This document shows positions 7,951 through 42,388 of a stretch of 64,000 bases of DNA, in pieces. Position numbers and translations under genes: made by a program. The notes beneath the pieces were generated by a model. That model worked only from the letters and a program-made list of their open reading frames with translations. It had not been told where the DNA came from and did not search any database. Source of the stretch: an uncultured Geobacteraceae bacterium (lineage in GTDB: Bacteria > Desulfobacterota > Desulfuromonadia > Geobacterales > Pseudopelobacteraceae); assembly GCA_903901875.1 (NCBI GenBank), contig CAIUSO010000031.1, forward strand, positions 1 through 64,000, written 5' to 3'. Within the stretch, counting starts at the first letter, position 1, and each line of letters begins with the position of its first letter.

Positions 7951-10900
7951 AGCTGCCTCGCCTTTTCTTCCCGATATTCCTCAATGGAAAGATTACGCAA
8001 CCGGGAGTCACGGCCATCCTCATTCTGGACAAAGCCCACACTGGAGACAAAGGGCTCTATAATATGAATTTTCTGGAGCGGAGTGACAATCAGAAGTTGC
8101 AGGTTGAGTTGGGCAAACAGCCGAAGGCCGTACTGTGCCGACTCATCCGAACCACGACCAAACGCCTCATCTATCACCACAAATCGGAAGGTGCGGGAAC
8201 GGACGGCACCCCATTCAAGTCCAAACTGATAGGCAAGGCTTGCCGCCAAAATGGTATAGGCGAGTTTTTCCTTCTGCCCCCCCGATTTGCCACCGGAGTC
8301 CGAGTAATGTTCATGTTCACTGTTATCCTCACGCCACCGTTCACTGGCTGCAAAGGTATACCAGTTACGCACATCGGTGACCTTGACGGTCCAGCGGCGG
8401 TCTCCTTCTGCCTGCCCGTCCCGGCCACGAAACCGTTCGATGATCTGCTTGACCTGCAGGAACTTTGCCTCCGAATACTGACTGTCATCAGAGCCGGTAA
8501 TGGCCCCTTCGGTGCAGCTGCGCAACTCACCCTGGAAATCGCGGATATCGGCGTCGGGGGTCAGCTGGGCCTCCAGAACGATATATCGGCCCGGATTATA
8601 ATCAATCTGATTGAGGGATTCGTTGATCCGCGTGATGCGATCTCTGATGGTTTCCCGTTCCCGTGCCAGCTGTGACTGAAAATTGGCCACCTCACGAATG
8701 GTATTTTCATTGAGCAAATCCTTGAACCGTGTTTCAAAACGGGGCAGGTCATCGGACCTCAACTTTTCAAGCATGGCCCGATACTCGGCAACCGCATCAA
8801 TGGCCACATCAACTTCCTGGGTGTCAAGGGGAAAGGAGGTACAATAGGCACGCATGGCGTCAATAATCCGGTCACGTAACCGATCTATTTTCTTGGTTTC
8901 CGTTTCAATTTTGCCCTGCAGCCACTCCCGCATGTCCCGCTCCCGGTTATCGCAGGATTCAACGGACAGGGTATGCTCTCCGAGTGCTTCGCCACGCATG
9001 GATTCGAGACGGTCAAAAAAGGTGGACCGTTCGGCTTGTCCAGGTGCCTCCAGCAGCAACATGGTGTGCTGGCGCAGCTCTTCGGCCGCTTCCCGCCTGG
9101 CCTGGGTAGCCCCCAGTTCCCGCGCCTTCTTTTCCCTCTCTTTTTCCGCGTCTCCCAGTTCTCCCTGGAGTGATTTCAAGCGCATGGTCAGGCTGTGCAA
9201 GAGATCGGAGGCCGCTTCAAGCTGCTTCTTTTCGGAATCAAGCCGAGCCAGCTCCACAACCAGCGATTGCCAGTCCAGCTCACTGAAATCAAGATATTCG
9301 TCAAGTTTTGACAGCGTATCGAGACGGTCCTTGCTTGTACTGTGTTCTTTCTGTAACGTCCCCATCAACTGGAGCAGTTCACCCAGCTGGGCCTCCAGTG
9401 CCCGTGACTTCCCTTCCAGCACGGCAATCTTCTCGCTATTGGTCCAGCCAAGAACGAATCGATGGCGGTCATCGATCCTGAACCGGTCATCTTTTTCATG
9501 GCGCTCACCGGCACCCTTGATCTGCCCGGCACGACTGATGGCTCGGCTCTCCCGCCGAAATTGTTCCTGGGTCAGACAGCAGGCCACATCGAAGCGGTGG
9601 GCCAGTTCACGCTCCAGCCAGTCATAAAACGGCGAATCCGGCTTGATTGCCAGCTTTCGCGCCAATGAATCCCGATGGAGTTCCGGGAGATCACCCCGCT
9701 GACCGGGGCGCACCCGAAAATAGACCAGACGCCCCTTAAGATGGGTTTGATCCACCCATTCGGCCACGGCACCATACAGATGGTCCGGCACCAGCAGTGA
9801 CAATCCAAAGTTACGCAGCAATCGCTCGCCTGCCCCCTCCCAGTCCCGTTCTTCCTCACGGAGCCGCAATAGTTCGCCGGCAAAGGGCATCTGCTCCTCG
9901 GGGAGCGACAGTGCCGTACAGAGGGCACTGCGCATGGACACCTGTTCGGCAGGAATATTACTCCGCCTGGTTTTTAAACTGGCAATTTCAGCAGCCAACT
10001 CTTCATGTTTCTGCTTCCCCTGGCGGAGATTGACACCATGCTCCGTGAGCCTGTTCTGGACATCGGCCTCCCGGATCCGTTCTGCTTCGGCCAAGGCCAG
10101 GAAATGGCGACGCTGTGCAAGGAAACCGTCCTCATCGGGGGCTGCGGTTTCACCTATGCCCCGCAAAAGCTCTGAATACCGGCTGGATTTTTGTTCACGC
10201 CTCAGACGTTCCCGTTCCCGCAGGCGGATTTCTTCAGCCAGGCGCTCCAGACGGTCGCCACCATTATCGGCAATACTCCGCTTCAATTCACCCTCTTCGC
10301 CTCTCAGGAAATCACAGCGTTCCTTGTGCCGTGTTGCCTGGAGATCCAGCCGTGCCCACTCTTCGGACAGCGAGGCGATACGTTTTTCTAACAGGGATAA
10401 TTTCAATGTGGCAAAAAACGATTTAAGTGCCTCCCGGCAGGCACGGAACTGTTCCCCCTCGGCAACCAGAATTCCGTGGCGTTCACAGTCGTTCACCAGC
10501 GGCGAAAGCAGTTCCACCTGTCGTTTGGCCTTCAACACCGCCTCGTGGGCACGGTTCAAATCGTCAAAGTGGTTCACCAGCGCGGTGATACGTGAGGCAA
10601 CATCAAACGGTTCCAGCATGTGACTCCGAACGAAATCGGTCAGATTCCCCACCGACTTCATGGATACGGTCTGATGGAACAGCTCCAGAGCCTGCTCGTT
10701 GTCGATGCCGAAACGGCGGCGAAACCAGGCACCGTAGGGGGGAAAACTCTCAAAAACCTCCGCTCCGATGCCCCGCAGTTTTTTACGGAGCTGGGAGATA
10801 TCCGAGCCGAAACGGGCAAAATCGGTGGCTATGGAGAGGGCCCGATCCATGCAGACAAAGAGACGGGCCGGCTGGGCCGACGCATCCTTCATCCAGAACA

Positions 10901-33815: not shown

Positions 33816-36800
33816 TTAACCGTCTATTTTTGCAGGAGCCTGACAGGCAGGTTTCAGTACAAGATCGTATGCAACCTGAGAAAGTGCATCTATTGCCTGC
33901 TGACCATCTGCCACTGTATCAACTGAGAGGCCGATTGTTTTCAGCATATGGAGTGCAACCTTCTGGTTGACAGGATTGTCCTCCGCCAGTAGTATTCGTG
34001 CGGTAAGATTTTCTCGTACTTTGTCAGAAGTGAATATATTGCCCTGTAGTTGATTTGTGGTACCCATCTTTACGTTGCAAGATTCAACATTTTGTTTCTC
34101 AAGCCGCGTAGTAAACCAGAATGTGGAACATTTCCCCTCTTCACTGACAACACCTATTTCCCCACCCATTAATTCAGCGAGTTGTTTACTGATAGCTAAT
34201 CCGAGACCAGTCCCGCCGTATTTACGGGTGGTAGAGGAATCAACCTGAGTAAATGGTGAAAAAAGTGCTGAAATGCGTGATGCCGGTATCCCGATCCCAG
34301 TATCAGTAATAGAGAACGTGATAATAGCAATACCATCCTGGTCGGACACAAGTGATACAGTAACGGTAACGGAACCTTTACGGGTAAATTTGATGGCATT
34401 ACCAACCAAATTGGTAATGATCTGCCGCAGTCTACCGGGATCACCATTGAGTAACGTGGGGACTGCTGGTTCAATGTGATACGACAATATGAGGCCAGCA
34501 TCGTCAACCCGATAAGCCAGAAGGTGGTTGATATCGTCTAATATCTGTTGCAGGTTAAAGTCAATGTGCTCAAGTTCAAGCTTTCCAGACTCGATTTTAG
34601 AAAAATCGAGGATGTCGTTAATCAAAACGAGAAGGCTCTCACCACTTCTACTGATAATCTCAGCATATTCAAGCTGAACAGGTGTTAAGCCGCTTTCCAT
34701 CAGAACACTGGACATCCCGATAATACCATTCATCGGTGTTCGTATTTCGTGGCTCATGTTAGAGAGGAAAAAACTTTTTGCTTCCGTGGCGGCTTCAGCC
34801 TTTATTTTGGCACTTGTGAGCTCCTCAAGCATATTTTTCTTGTCGGTGATATCTTGCTTGACAGCAATATAATGGGTTACTGCTCCCGAATCATCACAAA
34901 GGGCTGAAATTTTGGCGTGTTCCCAGAACAGTCGTCCATCCTTTGCTTTATTATGGAATTCACCCTCCCATACCTCATTGTTCGCAATTGTTGCCCGCAT
35001 ATCTGCAATAGAGTCAGGTGGCGTCAGGCCGGAATCAAGCTCACTTGCATTCAGGAAAATTGCTTCCTCAGCCGTATAACCTGTCAGCTCGGTAAATTTC
35101 TGATTGACAAATTCAATAGATCCGACGGTATCAGTAATCATAATGGAAACAGGACTCTGCTGAACGGCGCGGGATAGTTTTAGTAATTCAAGTTCATTGT
35201 GTTTTCTCTCTGTGATGTCCTCAAATACGGTAAATACTTCGAATGGCCTGGCCTCATGAGGACGAAATACGGGAACTGCGCCAATACTAATCCAACGGTA
35301 TTCGTTGAGTTTTTGGTTAAACACTCCCATAACCACTGAACTCACCGTCAGTCCGGTTCTTAACGCTACCATCGCAGGATGTTCCTCACCTGGAAATGGT
35401 TGACCATTTTCACGTATGGTTTGGTGTTGCACCTTAACGGAGCTACTACCGAGAAACTCTTCTTGATTCCAGCCAAGGATTTTCTCAGCGGCAGGGTTCA
35501 TTGAAGTGATCGTGCCGTCTGCATTCTGATAGACCACACCGTGGAGCATTGTTGTCGTCAGAATCCGTTGACGCTCCTCGCTCAGGTGTAACATCAGTTG
35601 GGCCTGAATCTGGTCGGTGACATCCTGAATTGTGCCAATCAATGATACGGGGTTACCCTGATGGTCGGATTTGACTTCACCCAAGCAGTGTACCCATCGC
35701 ATTTCTCCATCATTTTTACGGATTATCCTGTATTTTTTACAAAAGGGATTCTTTTTGGCTATGACATCTTCTCTCAAGTAGAGATCTATCATGGCCCGGT
35801 CATCGGGATGTACTATGTCTAACCATCCCTGAGCGTCTCTCGTGTAGTTGTTATCTATACCGAAGATAGTGTCCAGAACATCAGAGGATTCCCATTTGTC
35901 GGCCATGAAGTCAGCCTTATAAGAGCCTATGAACGCGGCCCGCTGGGATTCTTTGAAGAAATATTCACTCTCTCTTAATGCCTCTTCTGCCCTTTTACGT
36001 TCAGAAATATCACGCACAATGGCCCACATTCCGACAGGTTTACCAATTTCATCCTCTGAAAGGTACGTTCTCAACTCCACAGTTAACAATGTCCCCTCTT
36101 TACGGTAATATTCCTTTTCGTAAACAGGAGAATGGCCATGTACCAGTACGTGCTCATCCAAAATCTTTTTTTCTTCAGCGTGCCAACGTTCTGGTGTAAT
36201 TTCAAGATAGCTTAGCTTGCTGAGTTCCTCGGACGAGTAGCCGATCATCTCACAAAATGCTTTGTTGCAAATCAGTATGTTACCTGCCATATCGGCAGAA
36301 GCAAAGCCATCGGTCATGTTTTCAAAGAGAGATTGGTATTTGAGTCTCTTTTTATTGAGTCTGCTTTCAGCATTGATACGCTCTAAGCGACGCTTACGAA
36401 CGTTATAGATGGTAACAAAAAGGGATATCAGGAGAAATGGGGCGATGTATTTCAGTGAGTCTCTGAAAGTGGGCTCTTTAACTTCGTAGACCCCAAACCA
36501 CTTGGCATACAGTGCATCGTAGGAACCATTTGTTTTGGTCAGTGCAAGGGCCTCATTAATGTGAGCAAGAAGTTGAGAATCGTGTTTGTGGGTACCAAAT
36601 GAAAACTTCTGAGAGTAGCCGACCTTTGCGTGAAGGGGAATGATAGTATCGGTGTTAAGTTCATTAAGAGTCTGCATTCCGACGAGCTTGCTAAGCAACA
36701 TAGCATCGCACTTTCCAGATGCGAGTAATTTCAGGCCATCTTTTGCAGTTTCAACAACGACAAGCTGCTTTTGCAGCCCGTGGGAAAGAGCATATTCATG

Positions 36801-37232
36801 GGCTAGGTCAGATTTAAATACAATAATTGATTTATTGGCTAAATCGGCTTCTGAATGAATTCTGGAATCATTCTTTCGGACAAAAATTGCACCATGAACC
36901 GTATCGTGCGGAACGCTAAATGCGGTATAATTGTGCCGATCTTCCGATTGGGCAATATTAATGAGCACATCGACTTTGCCTTCTTTAAATTCCTGGAGGA
37001 TTTGTGCCCAGGGCCGTACTCGAATGGAATACTTCAGCCCCGCCTCCTTTGCAACCTCTTTCCACAGGTCAACGGTAAAACCAGAAGCAGTTTCATCGGT
37101 ATTTCCGACAGCAAAAGGCGGGAAATCCAGCTCGCTCCCAACTACCAGAGTTTTATCTGGCACGTAAGCAGCCATTGCCAAGCTTACATTGGCAAAGAAA
37201 GTAATCAGAAAAAATAACAGTCGCATGGTCAT
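33816..37232 (-). CDS. Periplasmic-binding-domain PAS hybrid histidine kinase with truncated REC
   Basis: The protein has 1138 residues: signal peptide (to about 21), periplasmic SBP_bac_3 solute-binding domain (about 25-250), one membrane helix (about 262-278), four PAS domains (about 300-420, 430-545, 555-680, 690-800), HisKA with phosphorylated His 828 in [13 protein letters not shown], HATPase with [17 protein letters not shown] and GGTGLGLA, then a REC domain starting near 1079 ([12 protein letters not shown]). The REC breaks off after AYDLVL and ends in an unrelated [12 protein letters not shown], so the phospho-acceptor Asp, Thr/Ser and Lys are missing. The layout is BvgS-like, so it probably senses an amino-acid-like ligand. 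The kinase core looks intact; it may pass phosphate to a separate regulator. Confidence 0.85.
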
Positions 37233-37431: not shown

Positions 37432-38808
37432 TTAGAATACTGCTATGGAGCGGGTCTGAGTGAATATTTCCTCTACCGCAGACACCCAATCAGCACTGAA
37501 GCTATCTGTATTAGTCAGCCATGTTTCGATGCTTCGCGACGTTTCAACCTTAACAGCAGCCTTTTCGTCGCATACTGCTGATACAATAAGAGCACCGGTA
37601 CCCTTCATTTTCCCATCCAACTCATTGTCGGTCATGGCAGCGAAAGCACGGCTCAATGAGTCAAAGTCTTTTACTGAGATATGCTTACATCGCTCTTTCT
37701 TCAACAATTCAGCCCCTTCAAGCAGCATGGCGTATTGCGTCGGCTTATCGGGAAACGATGTGCTCAGCTCCTGATGGAGATAATAAAGCTGGCGTTCCAA
37801 AGTAATACGTGGCAGCCCTTGGACCGCAAGATAGTTGGCAAACCATAATACCTTACGAATTAATGTTTGGTGATCGAGCTGTGCGAGGGTTACTAACCAA
37901 GCCGAGTCGCCACTTGCAAAACGCCTTCCCCTCTCTCCGTAACGTGCCTCAAAATAGGAAAACTCTTCAAAACAGAGGCGGCCAGCAGACGTTGCAGCTG
38001 CAACTTCCCTCTCATCTGTCGGCACCGCATGGTTTGACACCTCAGGATTTATGCTCGCTGCCGAGAATCTCATACCATCAACGGAGGGCAACGGATAAAG
38101 TCCCCTATGAATTTTTTCCATAAAGGAGAAGGACTCATTCACCGCACGCTGTATCTGAACAAACGCCTGTTCGTCAAAACAACTGCCATTTATAAGATGT
38201 TCGTATGTTGCCTGATATTCGCGGCTCTTCTCACCGTACACCCCAGAGAATGTGGCACCGTTTTCTTCGTCTGCTTGAAAACTGTTTTGTACCTCATCGC
38301 GATAAGCATGAGTAATCTGCAACACATGGTGAAGAGTAAAGAGGTACCCTATTAAACAGACCGGTTCTTCGCTAGCGAGAAATCTCATTCTGGCAATGAG
38401 AGCATCGACAGAGTGCCTTACGTCTATGATTTCCTGTAGTAAGGAACTGTTGAAATAGGTCAGGTCATCCACGATCCGCATAAAATGACTTTTATCGGCT
38501 TCCAAATCAGTACGGATCACTGATTGTAGAATATCTAACGTATCTAACCTTAATTTTTGGGTGGAGTTGTCCCTGCTCTGAACGGAGGATAAGTATGCAA
38601 CAAGCCGCTCAAGTGTGTTAAATATAGCGGCAAAGGCACGGAGTTGGTTAATGTAGGAGGGAAGTGGCAATGTGCCATTAGTAAGTGCTCCAAAGAAGGG
38701 AAGGCTTTTGAAACTGTCCAAAAGAGCGGCAGACTCAGACTGCATTCTCGTAATTACATTTTCTGACAGATGTTTATTTCTGTGAGCGTCTCTATTACTG
38801 ATGGTCAT
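37432..38808 (-). CDS. Heme-oxygenase-fold protein linked to a sensor kinase
   Basis: The product has about 458 residues. The first ~250 follow the helical layout of heme-oxygenase-like proteins: FKSLPFFGALTNGTLPLPSYINQLRAF, then EPVCLIGYLFTLHHVLQITHAY as the helix over the heme, and a terminal FVQIQRAVNESFSFMEKI. The proximal His and the GDLSGGQ-type distal motif of true heme oxygenases are not where expected. A second conserved part begins CFEEFSYFEARYGERGRRF. The start at 38808 overlaps the upstream kinase gene by 14 bases and is preceded by AAAGGGA, so the two are co-expressed. I infer a ligand or redox sensing partner rather than an enzyme; this is not proven. Confidence 0.55.
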   Translation of the reverse strand: MTISNRDAHRNKHLSENVITRMQSESAALLDSFKSLPFFGALTNGTLPLPSYINQLRAFAAIFNTLERLVAYLSSVQSRDNSTQKLRLDTLDILQSVIRTDLEADKSHFMRIVDDLTYFNSSLLQEIIDVRHSVDALIARMRFLASEEPVCLIGYLFTLHHVLQITHAYRDEVQNSFQADEENGATFSGVYGEKSREYQATYEHLINGSCFDEQAFVQIQRAVNESFSFMEKIHRGLYPLPSVDGMRFSAASINPEVSNHAVPTDEREVAAATSAGRLCFEEFSYFEARYGERGRRFASGDSAWLVTLAQLDHQTLIRKVLWFANYLAVQGLPRITLERQLYYLHQELSTSFPDKPTQYAMLLEGAELLKKERCKHISVKDFDSLSRAFAAMTDNELDGKMKGTGALIVSAVCDEKAAVKVETSRSIETWLTNTDSFSADWVSAVEEIFTQTRSIAVF

Positions 38809-41800
38809 ATTGTCCCTTTCCCGGAGGCAGCCATTTCTCAAGCATTTCAGCCAGATCGGCCTTTTTAAGCGGCTTGGTCAGGTAATCATCCATCCCAACA
38901 CCAATACACATTTCCCTATCTCCCTCCATGGCATTGGCTGTTACCGCTATTATCGGTACCTTATGATTAATGACGTGTGAGGAGCTATCCCTGATAACCG
39001 TCGTCGCTTCATAGCCGTTCATTTCCGGCATCATACAATCCATCAAGACAAGATCATAGTCAGCTATTTCCAGTGCCCGAACCGCTTTCGCTCCGTCGGG
39101 GACCACATCAGCGGTGTAACCGATGTTCTTCAGTAGATTACAGATGATTTTCTGATTTATCGTATTGTCTTCTGCCAGGAGAATCCGGGTGGCAGGTGCG
39201 CTCACAGCTGTTTCTGGTTGGCCAATAACAGCTGCATTCTGCGGCTCTACTCTCTCAGCCGGGCATACGTCCGACTCCGCTCCCTGATCTTTTTTAGAAA
39301 GTTCTAATCTTGCTGTAAACCAGAAAGTGGAACCTTTGCCATATTCACTCGTTACGCCAACTTCTCCCCCCAGAAGTTCCGCCAGTTCCTTGGAGAGTGC
39401 CAATCCCAAGCCGGTGCCGCCGTGGCAACGGGTTGAGGAACTATCAATCTGGGAAAAAGCGGAAAAAATTCCCTTTAGGACCGATTCTTTAATACCACGG
39501 CCGGTATCATGGACATCGAAGCGTATGATTGCAAAACCGAACTCCACAGCCTGGCAGGAGACCGCTATGACAACGGTTCCTTTTGCGGTGAACTTGAGAG
39601 CGTTATCAACCAGGCTGGTCAGTATCTGCAGCACTTTACCCGCATCCCCTTTCAAATGGCAGGGGACTGCGGGGGCGATTCGAGTGGAAAGCCCGATCCC
39701 GGAATCTGTGGCTCTGGTGATAAATTTATCTGTTGTTTCATGGATGATTCTCTGTAGATTGAAATCCTTACTTTCAAGAGTCAGCCTATTTATCCTGATC
39801 TGGGTAAAGTCAAGTATGTCACTGACTATCCTGAGGAGATCTTGACCACAGCTGTTGGCAATTTGCGCAAAATCCCGCTGTTCATCGGTCAGATCACTTT
39901 CAAGCAATATATCTGTCATTCCGATCATCCCGTTTAACGGGGTACGCATCTCATGGCTCATTACTGCCAAAAATTCATCCTTGGCTTGATTCGCTATTTC
40001 GGCTTTTTCTTTTGCCGTTATGAGCGACGATTCCAGTTCCTTACGCTTGTTGATATTTTCTTTGATGCTGACATAATGGGTTATGACACCCTCTTCATCA
40101 CGCATCGGTGAAACTTTGGCGTATTCGAAATTGATTTCACCTTTTTTGTTCCTGTTTATGAACTCCCCCTCCCACATCTGCCCGCTCTTTATGGTGGACC
40201 AGAGTTCCTGGTATGTTTCCGGTGGAGTTAGGCCCGATTTGAGCACACGCGGATTCTGCCCAATAGCTTCTTCAGCTGAATAACCGGTTAATGTGACAAA
40301 GAACGGATTGACGAATTCTATCGTGCCACTGGTATCAGTAATCACGACCGTAACGGGACTCTGTTCAATGACACGGGAGAGCATACTCAGCTGCCTTTCA
40401 GCCGCTTTACGCCAGGTAATATCTTCGTGTGATATTACCGCGTATCTGACACCGTTAACGCTGAAGGGGTTCGCCGTACAAATGAACCAGAGGTCTTTTT
40501 CAGGGGTTTGGCACGGATATTCCTTCATGAATTGTGGTGAAGTGCCTTCCAGCACCGCGCTGATTCCGGTGGTAAATTCTTTTACAGCAGGATCCTGTTC
40601 GGCTGCAGGGGATTGACAGGCAAAGAAATAGTTTGATCCTATGCTACTAAACTCTTTTATCGCATCGTTCTGCATGCCGAAATATTCCCAGGCACGATTG
40701 GTGGTAATGATGGTTCCCTGGGGGTTTAAGACACAGATATGCGCCCTGATACCGTCAAGGGTTGCTTTGTAAAACTGATCCTGCGCCGTCAGGTTCGCTT
40801 CAGCTTTTTTTAAATCGGTGATATCTGTGATAAGAGCAAAGAAACCATGGAAGTTGCCCCCGACACCGTCCGGTATATAGTGTGCCCAGGCATAACCGGT
40901 GCTACCATCTGCTTTCATTAAAGTACGTTCGAAATGTTGTGGTTCCCCTTGCATGACTGCGTTTATAAAAGGCTCATTTTGGCTGAATAATTCGTCGCCC
41001 ATAAGGTCCCGGATATGGATACCCTTCATCTGCTCCGGACTTTTTCCGAACCATTCCTGATAGGTTAGATTGGCAAACCTGCACCGGAGATCCTGATCCC
41101 AGTAGCCAACCATTCCCGGGAGCACATCAATCAGCTGCCTCATGAAACGTTCACTCTCCGAAAGCATATCAGAAACCTGCTTTTGTTCTGTTATATCAAG
41201 GTGGAATCCCTGCATGAGCAGAGGAGTGCCATCCAGATCCCATTGGGTTACACTCCCATAGTCGCTCACCCAAACCCATCCTCCATTTTTATGCTTCATG
41301 CGAAATTCGTTATGTAATGGCCGGGAAGGGTCCTTGACGTGAATGTTGAACTGCTCATATATGCTATTAGTATCGTCGGGATGAACGGAGTCCAGTAACG
41401 TCTGAATGGTGATGGGGGCGAGCTCCGCACAGGTGAAGCCGAACATCCCCGCCCAATGTTCATTAACGACCGCTTCACCGGTTTTGATATTCCACTCCCA
41501 GGTTCCGGCACCGGTACCGTTAATTATACCGTCAAGACGGTGTTGTTTTAGCTCAAGTTCTCTGTGCTTATCATTGAGGGCGGAGGCTATGGTAACTCGA
41601 TCCGTTATATCGTGGGAAATTTCCGATGTACCAATGACACCCCCCTGAGAATTGTACACGGGCGAGAGTGAGACCGACACATCTATTACACTGCCATCCT
41701 TGCGCAGGCGGAGGGTATCAAAGTGATTGATACTGCAACCGTTACGAATCTGCACCATAAACATTGTCTCTTCATTCCGCTGCAGTTCGGGTATCACAAG

Positions 41801-42325
41801 AGAGATTGGTTTTCCAATAGCCTCGTCACGGCAATAGCCATACATTCGCTCTGCCCCGACATTCCAGCTGGTAATGGTGCCCTCCAGCGTTTTGGCTATA
41901 ATGGCGTCGTCAGAGGATTCAACGATCGCCGCAAGGGCAGCACGTTCTGCCTCGACCAGTTTTTGCCCGGTTACGTCGGTAAAAACGAACATCAACTCAT
42001 TGATTTCAACTTTCTGAATACTGACCTCAAGTATCAGTCTGCTGAAATTGCCTTTGCAGCCCTCAAGAGTAACGGTCAGTTCTTCACACACCACCCCGTA
42101 TTCTCCGGAAAACCGATCAACCAACCGATGGATCTCCGGTGCAACAGGGTCAAGAATATGAAAAATATTATCTATCATGCCGTGGCTGGCAATCCCCATA
42201 AGCAACGCAACTGCTTTTTGAGTTAGCATTATTACGTCACCATTAATGGCAACCCGGGCAATGGCCACAGGAATCTTGTTCAGAAAGGCCAGCAGTTCAT
42301 CATCTTGAGTAATGTATTTATCCAT
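38795..42325 (-). CDS. Multi-PAS hybrid histidine kinase
   Basis: The product is a cytoplasmic hybrid kinase of about 1176 residues, with no signal peptide or clear membrane helix. Six PAS-type domains (about 10-120, 125-245, 260-385, 390-505, 515-635, 645-765) feed into HisKA with His near 791 in AVMSHEMRTPLNG. The HATPase has SLVDNALKFT, DTGRGI and [18 protein letters not shown]-terminal REC follows with acceptor Asp in LVLMDCMMPEMNG and conserved LTKP. It probably senses several cytoplasmic cues. The start at ATG 42325 (MDKYITQDDELL) is preferred to an ATG 14 codons upstream. It overlaps the heme-oxygenase-fold gene, which should be its functional partner. Confidence 0.85.
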   Translation of the reverse strand: MDKYITQDDELLAFLNKIPVAIARVAINGDVIMLTQKAVALLMGIASHGMIDNIFHILDPVAPEIHRLVDRFSGEYGVVCEELTVTLEGCKGNFSRLILEVSIQKVEINELMFVFTDVTGQKLVEAERAALAAIVESSDDAIIAKTLEGTITSWNVGAERMYGYCRDEAIGKPISLVIPELQRNEETMFMVQIRNGCSINHFDTLRLRKDGSVIDVSVSLSPVYNSQGGVIGTSEISHDITDRVTIASALNDKHRELELKQHRLDGIINGTGAGTWEWNIKTGEAVVNEHWAGMFGFTCAELAPITIQTLLDSVHPDDTNSIYEQFNIHVKDPSRPLHNEFRMKHKNGGWVWVSDYGSVTQWDLDGTPLLMQGFHLDITEQKQVSDMLSESERFMRQLIDVLPGMVGYWDQDLRCRFANLTYQEWFGKSPEQMKGIHIRDLMGDELFSQNEPFINAVMQGEPQHFERTLMKADGSTGYAWAHYIPDGVGGNFHGFFALITDITDLKKAEANLTAQDQFYKATLDGIRAHICVLNPQGTIITTNRAWEYFGMQNDAIKEFSSIGSNYFFACQSPAAEQDPAVKEFTTGISAVLEGTSPQFMKEYPCQTPEKDLWFICTANPFSVNGVRYAVISHEDITWRKAAERQLSMLSRVIEQSPVTVVITDTSGTIEFVNPFFVTLTGYSAEEAIGQNPRVLKSGLTPPETYQELWSTIKSGQMWEGEFINRNKKGEINFEYAKVSPMRDEEGVITHYVSIKENINKRKELESSLITAKEKAEIANQAKDEFLAVMSHEMRTPLNGMIGMTDILLESDLTDEQRDFAQIANSCGQDLLRIVSDILDFTQIRINRLTLESKDFNLQRIIHETTDKFITRATDSGIGLSTRIAPAVPCHLKGDAGKVLQILTSLVDNALKFTAKGTVVIAVSCQAVEFGFAIIRFDVHDTGRGIKESVLKGIFSAFSQIDSSSTRCHGGTGLGLALSKELAELLGGEVGVTSEYGKGSTFWFTARLELSKKDQGAESDVCPAERVEPQNAAVIGQPETAVSAPATRILLAEDNTINQKIICNLLKNIGYTADVVPDGAKAVRALEIADYDLVLMDCMMPEMNGYEATTVIRDSSSHVINHKVPIIAVTANAMEGDREMCIGVGMDDYLTKPLKKADLAEMLEKWLPPGKGQYDHQ

Positions 42326-42388
42326 AAGGTACCCCACTCCTGCCCGGTATAATAACGAATCAAGCAAGGGTTGTCAGCTTACAACTCC

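Follow-up and report, generated by a model that had tools for sequence, protein, structure and literature searches.

The window analysed here is a stretch of 64,000 nucleotides from an uncultured Geobacteraceae bacterium (positions 1 to 64,000 of contig CAIUSO010000031.1, assembly GCA_903901875.1). On its minus strand it carries a gene for a two-domain protein, in which a heme-oxygenase-fold (HO-fold) domain is followed by a predicted photoglobin domain and a helical tail. A Shine-Dalgarno-like AAGGGA lies immediately 5' of the ATG of this gene, and its start overlaps the stop of an upstream gene encoding a hybrid histidine kinase (Table 1), as had been described in the first-pass annotation of the locus. 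Six PAS domains were counted there, of which Pfam recognised five, with no match in residues 1-140 of the kinase. The description of the kinase as cytoplasmic agrees with its hydrophobicity, since its only hydrophobic stretch is marginal (mean of 1.8 over 19 residues, at residue 930) and lies within the ATPase domain.

Table 1. Positions of the HO-fold/photoglobin gene, its domains and marked residues, and the overlapping kinase gene within the window.
Feature	Position	Strand	Basis
HO-fold/photoglobin protein, 458 amino acids	37432..38808, stop codon included	(-)	open frame, ATG at 38808
HO-fold domain, residues 16-243	38080..38763	(-)	VIA-align against heme oxygenases, Z about 21-22; profile of the domain against PDB 1we1, E 1.3e-16
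Leu30, where relatives have the proximal His	38719..38721	(-)	alignment
H161 to I165, where relatives have the distal GxxxG	38314..38328	(-)	alignment
Photoglobin (predicted bilin-binding globin) domain, residues 263-375	37684..38022	(-)	model and profile match
Asp301, aligned with biliverdin contact Asp270 of photocobilin SasPcob; invariant in 25/25	37906..37908	(-)	
Trp322, at the position of SasPcob Trp296; invariant in 25/25	37843..37845	(-)	
C-terminal helical tail, residues 376-458, without known family	37435..37683	(-)	
Overlap of the HO-like start with the kinase stop, 14 nucleotides	38795..38808	(-)	
Hybrid histidine kinase, upstream member of the gene pair, with five PAS domains recognised, then HisKA, HATPase and receiver	38795..42367	(-)	Pfam

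The heme-oxygenase fold and ancestry of the first domain are secure because structural alignment, profile, Pfam and PDB matches agree. The window protein alone scored 21.1 bits against PF01126 (E 3.1e-4; gathering cut-off 23), and phmmer linked it to Synechocystis HO-2 in the PDB (1wov, E 7.7e-4). Further PF01126 scores also fell near the 23-bit cut-off, one at 22.7 and one at 22.3, the latter becoming 23.2 when its neighbours in frame were included. Across the family, 21 of 23 members matched PF01126, and a profile built from 23 HO domains reached the heme oxygenases of the PDB with an E-value of 1.3e-16 (1we1). The AlphaFold model of the window protein, made with 17 relatives as input, had a mean predicted local distance difference test score (pLDDT) of 88.6. 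Structure comparison of this model, in which an unrelated fold would have refuted the first-pass annotation, placed residues 16-242 on rat HO-1 with a VIA-align Z of 22.3 (root-mean-square deviation 2.5, 207 residues aligned). The best 50 VIA-align rows were heme oxygenases nearly throughout, plus one domain of unknown function (3dde), and a single thiaminase II appeared lower down in the Foldseek list obtained with the HO-fold model. TenA and other HO-like folds are accordingly the less likely assignment.

Both motifs of the heme site are gone from the window protein. In an alignment with 22 relatives, Leu30 replaces the proximal His, and H161 and I165 stand where the two glycines of the distal GxxxG are expected. 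Their absence had been noted in the first-pass annotation, and it holds for a clade of three, the window protein with its two closest relatives, which lack both motifs and group together with a support of 100/100. It does not hold for the family: among the relatives outside this clade, all 22 retain the distal GxxxG, and the proximal His is present in 20 of the 21 in which the column is occupied. Cleavage of heme to biliverdin by the window protein itself is disfavoured on this sequence evidence.

A single-protein query detected the family in 8 of 58 relatives. With a profile query, 277 genomes of the class were searched, 18 of which carried HO-photoglobin fusions, and the family was recovered in 5 of 395 genomes sampled from the phylum. 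A search with the globin part only, run over 297 genomes of the phylum, gave three positive genomes, and every copy was fused to HO. No fusion was detected in the plasmid search, which returned plain Deinococcus HOs only (3 records), and a scan of genome contigs returned one locus only. The genome of the window holds three full-length paralogs, one of them intact at G000:C142:66688-67935, and one remnant consisting of the C-terminal 80 residues. The alignment of 25 sequences used here excludes three loci that are truncated, masked or decayed (L039, L079, L082) and includes two that are cut at contig ends (L033, L036). One of the excluded loci, L082, belongs to another family of the order and carries a decayed copy with two in-frame stops around 8090-8392 (-).

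Sequence divergence is distributed unevenly over the two halves of the protein in the clade of the window. HO-domain identity within the clade is 46-47%, compared with 66-74% for the C-terminal part, while in 42 pairs from elsewhere in the family the two identities differ by only -13 to +11 points. Nonsynonymous divergence (dN) in the clade amounts to 0.38-0.46 for the HO domain and 0.17-0.21 for the C-terminal part, with synonymous divergence (dS) above 1.2 and near saturation. The HO domain is thus replaced at about twice the C-terminal rate, and in this clade only. Because its dN remains at 0.38-0.46 with dS above 1.2, the domain is still constrained, and the constraint on the HO half of the clade is altered yet not abolished.

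The second conserved domain, likewise proposed in the first-pass annotation, spans residues 241-458 and contains 16 invariant columns over the 25 aligned sequences. Pfam matched no family in these residues. In two decayed relatives the C-terminal tail is the sole surviving part. When modelled on its own, the C-terminal domain reached a pLDDT of 90.3, and VIA-align ranked the photocobilin globin 8j2w first (Z 12.0, root-mean-square deviation 2.1, 106 aligned residues, 21% identity), although the tool warns that Z values below about 13 may be due to chance in helical domains. It was followed by 8j2x (Z 11.8), smURFP (11.7) and phycobiliproteins (about 9 to 10). Since a Z of 12 lies within the chance range of the tool for such domains, sequence evidence was sought. 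A profile of 24 globin-part sequences was compared by hhalign with seven photocobilin globins from Streptomyces, Azospirillum and Skermanella plasmids, giving a score of 39.5, a P-value of 3.5e-6 and a probability of 87.6%. The highest score among 60 column-shuffled versions was 20.6, so that the real score exceeded all 60.

The aligned positions include two residues with a known role in bilin binding. In SasPcob, Asp270 is a key biliverdin contact and Trp296 adjoins ring D (PMC10979010); residues were counted on the 8j2w sequence, and the offset of 6 was fixed by His108, Trp61 and Glu71-His72 of that publication. Asp301 and Trp322 of the window protein align with them and are invariant in all 25 aligned sequences. 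Together, model and sequence predict a bilin-binding globin (photoglobin) for the second domain, which Pfam lacks, and we infer on the same grounds that the window protein may bind a bilin.

Genes for B12-binding, CarH-like proteins are frequent neighbours of the family. At 17 of the 28 loci such a gene was detected no more than 1.4 kb away, a count that includes the three loci left out of the alignment and relies on a B12 model made from the neighbour proteins themselves; among the 11 loci without such a gene, the sequence ends at most 3 kb away on at least one side in five. An independent PF02607 search returned the same B12 genes at most of these loci, and three of the neighbours were confirmed by Pfam. 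The motif W-x9-EH, known from light-sensing CarH (PMC8156234), is present in 16 of the 17 neighbour proteins. Near the window gene neither the PF02607 search nor the B12 model detected a B12 gene, the window contig had no PF02607 match, and a Pfam scan of the window protein identified no B12 family in the chain itself. Elsewhere in the genome of the window, at L100 1417-3999 (+), a B12-binding domain is fused to PAS domains and a histidine kinase, with W-x9-EH reading ER for EH. At two loci (L077, 3648-4766 (+); L032, 9316-10680 (-)), the HO-photoglobin gene adjoins one for a B12 protein that carries an additional globin-like domain at its N terminus, and each of these operons may contain two bilin-globin candidates.

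The 18 carrier genomes were also searched for enzymes and receptors of bilin metabolism. All 22 PF01126 hits at E 1e-4 were members of the HO-photoglobin family. A supply of bilin to phytochromes was rejected because the phytochrome PHY domain was found in none of the 18 genomes, and a phycobilin pathway because a bilin reductase was found in none. If the HOs of the family make biliverdin, the candidate acceptors seen are their own photoglobin domains and the photocobilin-like proteins.

A two-component gene lies at most three genes away at 21 of 25 family loci, as counted by BLAST against kinases and regulators drawn partly from those same loci. The association is more specific for the kinase of the window. 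When its sensory part was compared over four genomes, the five best kinases among the matches listed, its own included, all adjoined a family gene or a remnant of one: three stand beside an intact HO-photoglobin gene (the window, G004:C5 and G020:C139) and two beside a C-terminal remnant (G000:C114 and G020:C85). The pairing of the family gene with this kinase type is inherited, and it recurs in other genomes. Both results support a role for the window protein as accessory sensor subunit of a histidine kinase. With regard to the ligand, for which heme, bilin, iron or gas had been suggested in the first-pass annotation, the predicted globin favours a bilin and the lost motifs disfavour heme.

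Two partial loci carry window-like kinases as well. At L026, in the genome of the window, such a kinase is followed by only the last 80 residues of the family (about 8353-8592 (-)), and a GC-rich palindrome, CCCCTCC...GGAGGGG, is located near 8600-8640, where the missing part of the gene would be. At L040 (8797-9714 (-)), the kinase is followed by a 305-residue protein whose first 49 residues correspond to the family tail and are fused to a chemoreceptor-like stretch.

The explanation proposed here, to which we assign about an even chance, is that the window protein is a pseudo-heme-oxygenase/photoglobin sensing biliverdin, and perhaps light, on behalf of the kinase encoded by the overlapping gene. 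The family would represent a two-part sensor subunit, with an HO-fold domain followed by a photoglobin, i.e., a globin holding a linear tetrapyrrole. In most members, heme and O2 are probably converted by the HO domain to biliverdin, which would be taken up by the photoglobin within that polypeptide, and the CarH-like B12 protein encoded next door would complete a split photocobilin controlling a histidine kinase. The clade of the window would be a derived form in which the heme site was lost and a nearby B12 gene is missing, with the bilin residues and the kinase pairing kept. The window protein may then bind biliverdin supplied by the three intact paralogs of the same genome and pass its bilin or light state to the kinase. 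A broader interpretation, held more tentatively and at somewhat less than even chance, is that non-phototrophs possess a self-supplying photoreceptor chain, with chromophore enzyme and globin in one polypeptide that acts on histidine kinases together with a separately encoded CarH-like B12 photosensor, of which the clade of the window would have turned the enzyme half into a pseudoenzyme and kept the receptor half, wired to one hybrid kinase.

Several observations weigh against this explanation. The clade of interest comprises three members only. Neither single-sequence nor profile searches of the PDB with the C-terminal domain linked any chain confidently, and Foldseek with this domain alone returned nothing below E 0.5, which adds to the VIA-align score within the chance range and an hhalign probability of just 87.6%. 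Against the globins of the photocobilin-like proteins in the relatives' own genomes, hhalign gave a weak match (P 0.024, probability 2%; 1% in a second run), and a PDB search with the N-terminal globin of these local proteins yielded nothing useful. Kinases are abundant, with 150 scored HATPase hits in 4.3 Mb, and because they are so common in the genome, proximity to one is weak evidence on its own. The sixth-closest kinase among the matches listed, on a contig of 3.65 kb, has no HO gene there. Furthermore, heme oxygenase requires O2, whereas Geobacteraceae are mostly anaerobes.

Among the other explanations, a protein-protein scaffold that binds no ligand and holds the kinase or its partners through both domains is rather unlikely. 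The loss of both heme motifs and the lack of a nearby B12 gene in the clade are consistent with it, and Plasmodium is known to have an HO scaffold that is catalytically dead and serves another purpose (PMC11634067); however, the globin part is the best conserved of the clade, and the two bilin-contact residues are unchanged. Also unlikely is that bound biliverdin reports not light but the supply of O2, heme or iron, by way of the HO reaction of its paralogs and its dependence on O2. It is established that the HO reaction requires heme and O2, the relatives are not phototrophs and their carrier genomes lack phytochromes, which is in line with such a report, but the motif of light-sensing CarH-type B12 domains in nearly all B12 neighbours of the family and the light response of photocobilins (PMC10979010) argue for light.

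A heme or gas sensor whose HO domain still binds heme through another ligand is considerably less probable. The predicted fold is intact and the domain is under purifying selection, but the proximal His and both distal glycines are lost, and the doubled replacement rate of the HO domain is confined to this clade. That an ordinary, iron-supplying heme oxygenase came to lie in a kinase island by chance is scarcely credible. The HO fold and the nine HATPase hits that the contig holds within about 35 kb would allow for it, but the catalytic motifs are missing, a photoglobin is fused to the domain and the pairing with one kinase type is inherited; the iron-supply function was rejected on the missing motifs and the gene context. 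The preferred explanation remains a biliverdin-sensing subunit of the kinase.

The closest known systems are the photocobilins SasPcob and AbDPcob (PMC10979010), which share with the window protein the globin fold, an alignable profile and the biliverdin-contacting Asp and Trp, and with the wider family the CarH-like B12 partner, encoded here by the gene next door. In contrast to photocobilins as described there, the family globin is fused to an HO fold and not to a B12 domain, and the window copy has no nearby B12 gene and overlaps a kinase gene. With regard to the BBAG-2/photoglobins (PMC10151467), RGMP is found in the family here and QGLP in the window protein. In the text consulted, HO and globin are separate proteins, with "fusion" denoting globin-B12, whereas here both form one chain that has an additional helical tail and lies near two-component genes. 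The genes next to most relatives encode the Wx9EH and ExHx2G of CarH-type B12 photoreceptors (PMC8156234) but, unlike the latter, no DNA-binding domain. Rat HO-1, Synechocystis HO-2 and HmuO share the fold over residues 16-242, and the window clade differs from canonical heme oxygenases in its missing His and GxxxG. PfHO of Plasmodium also kept the HO scaffold after loss of the active site, but its function is different and organellar, and it has no photoglobin (PMC11634067).

No report of an HO-photoglobin fusion or of its kinase operons was found in the literature covered, which did not extend to the original photoglobin paper or the supplements of PMC10151467, so the fusion may already be published. 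Few signalling partners are known of photocobilins and bilin-binding globins, both discovered only recently, and according to the PNAS paper it is not yet known what BBAGs do. A chain joining chromophore synthesis to sensing within histidine-kinase operons would offer a direct handle on BBAG function, and the clade of the window would serve as a natural experiment in which the enzyme site was lost and the receptor site kept.

The surroundings of the gene pair are rich in kinases. Contig C31, to which the window belongs, forms a dense histidine-kinase island between 34 and 70 kb, with at least nine HATPase hits within about 35 kb. The next kinase downstream, at 33816-37232 (-) of the window, has a receiver domain that ends after about 47 residues, with no remainder in any downstream frame.
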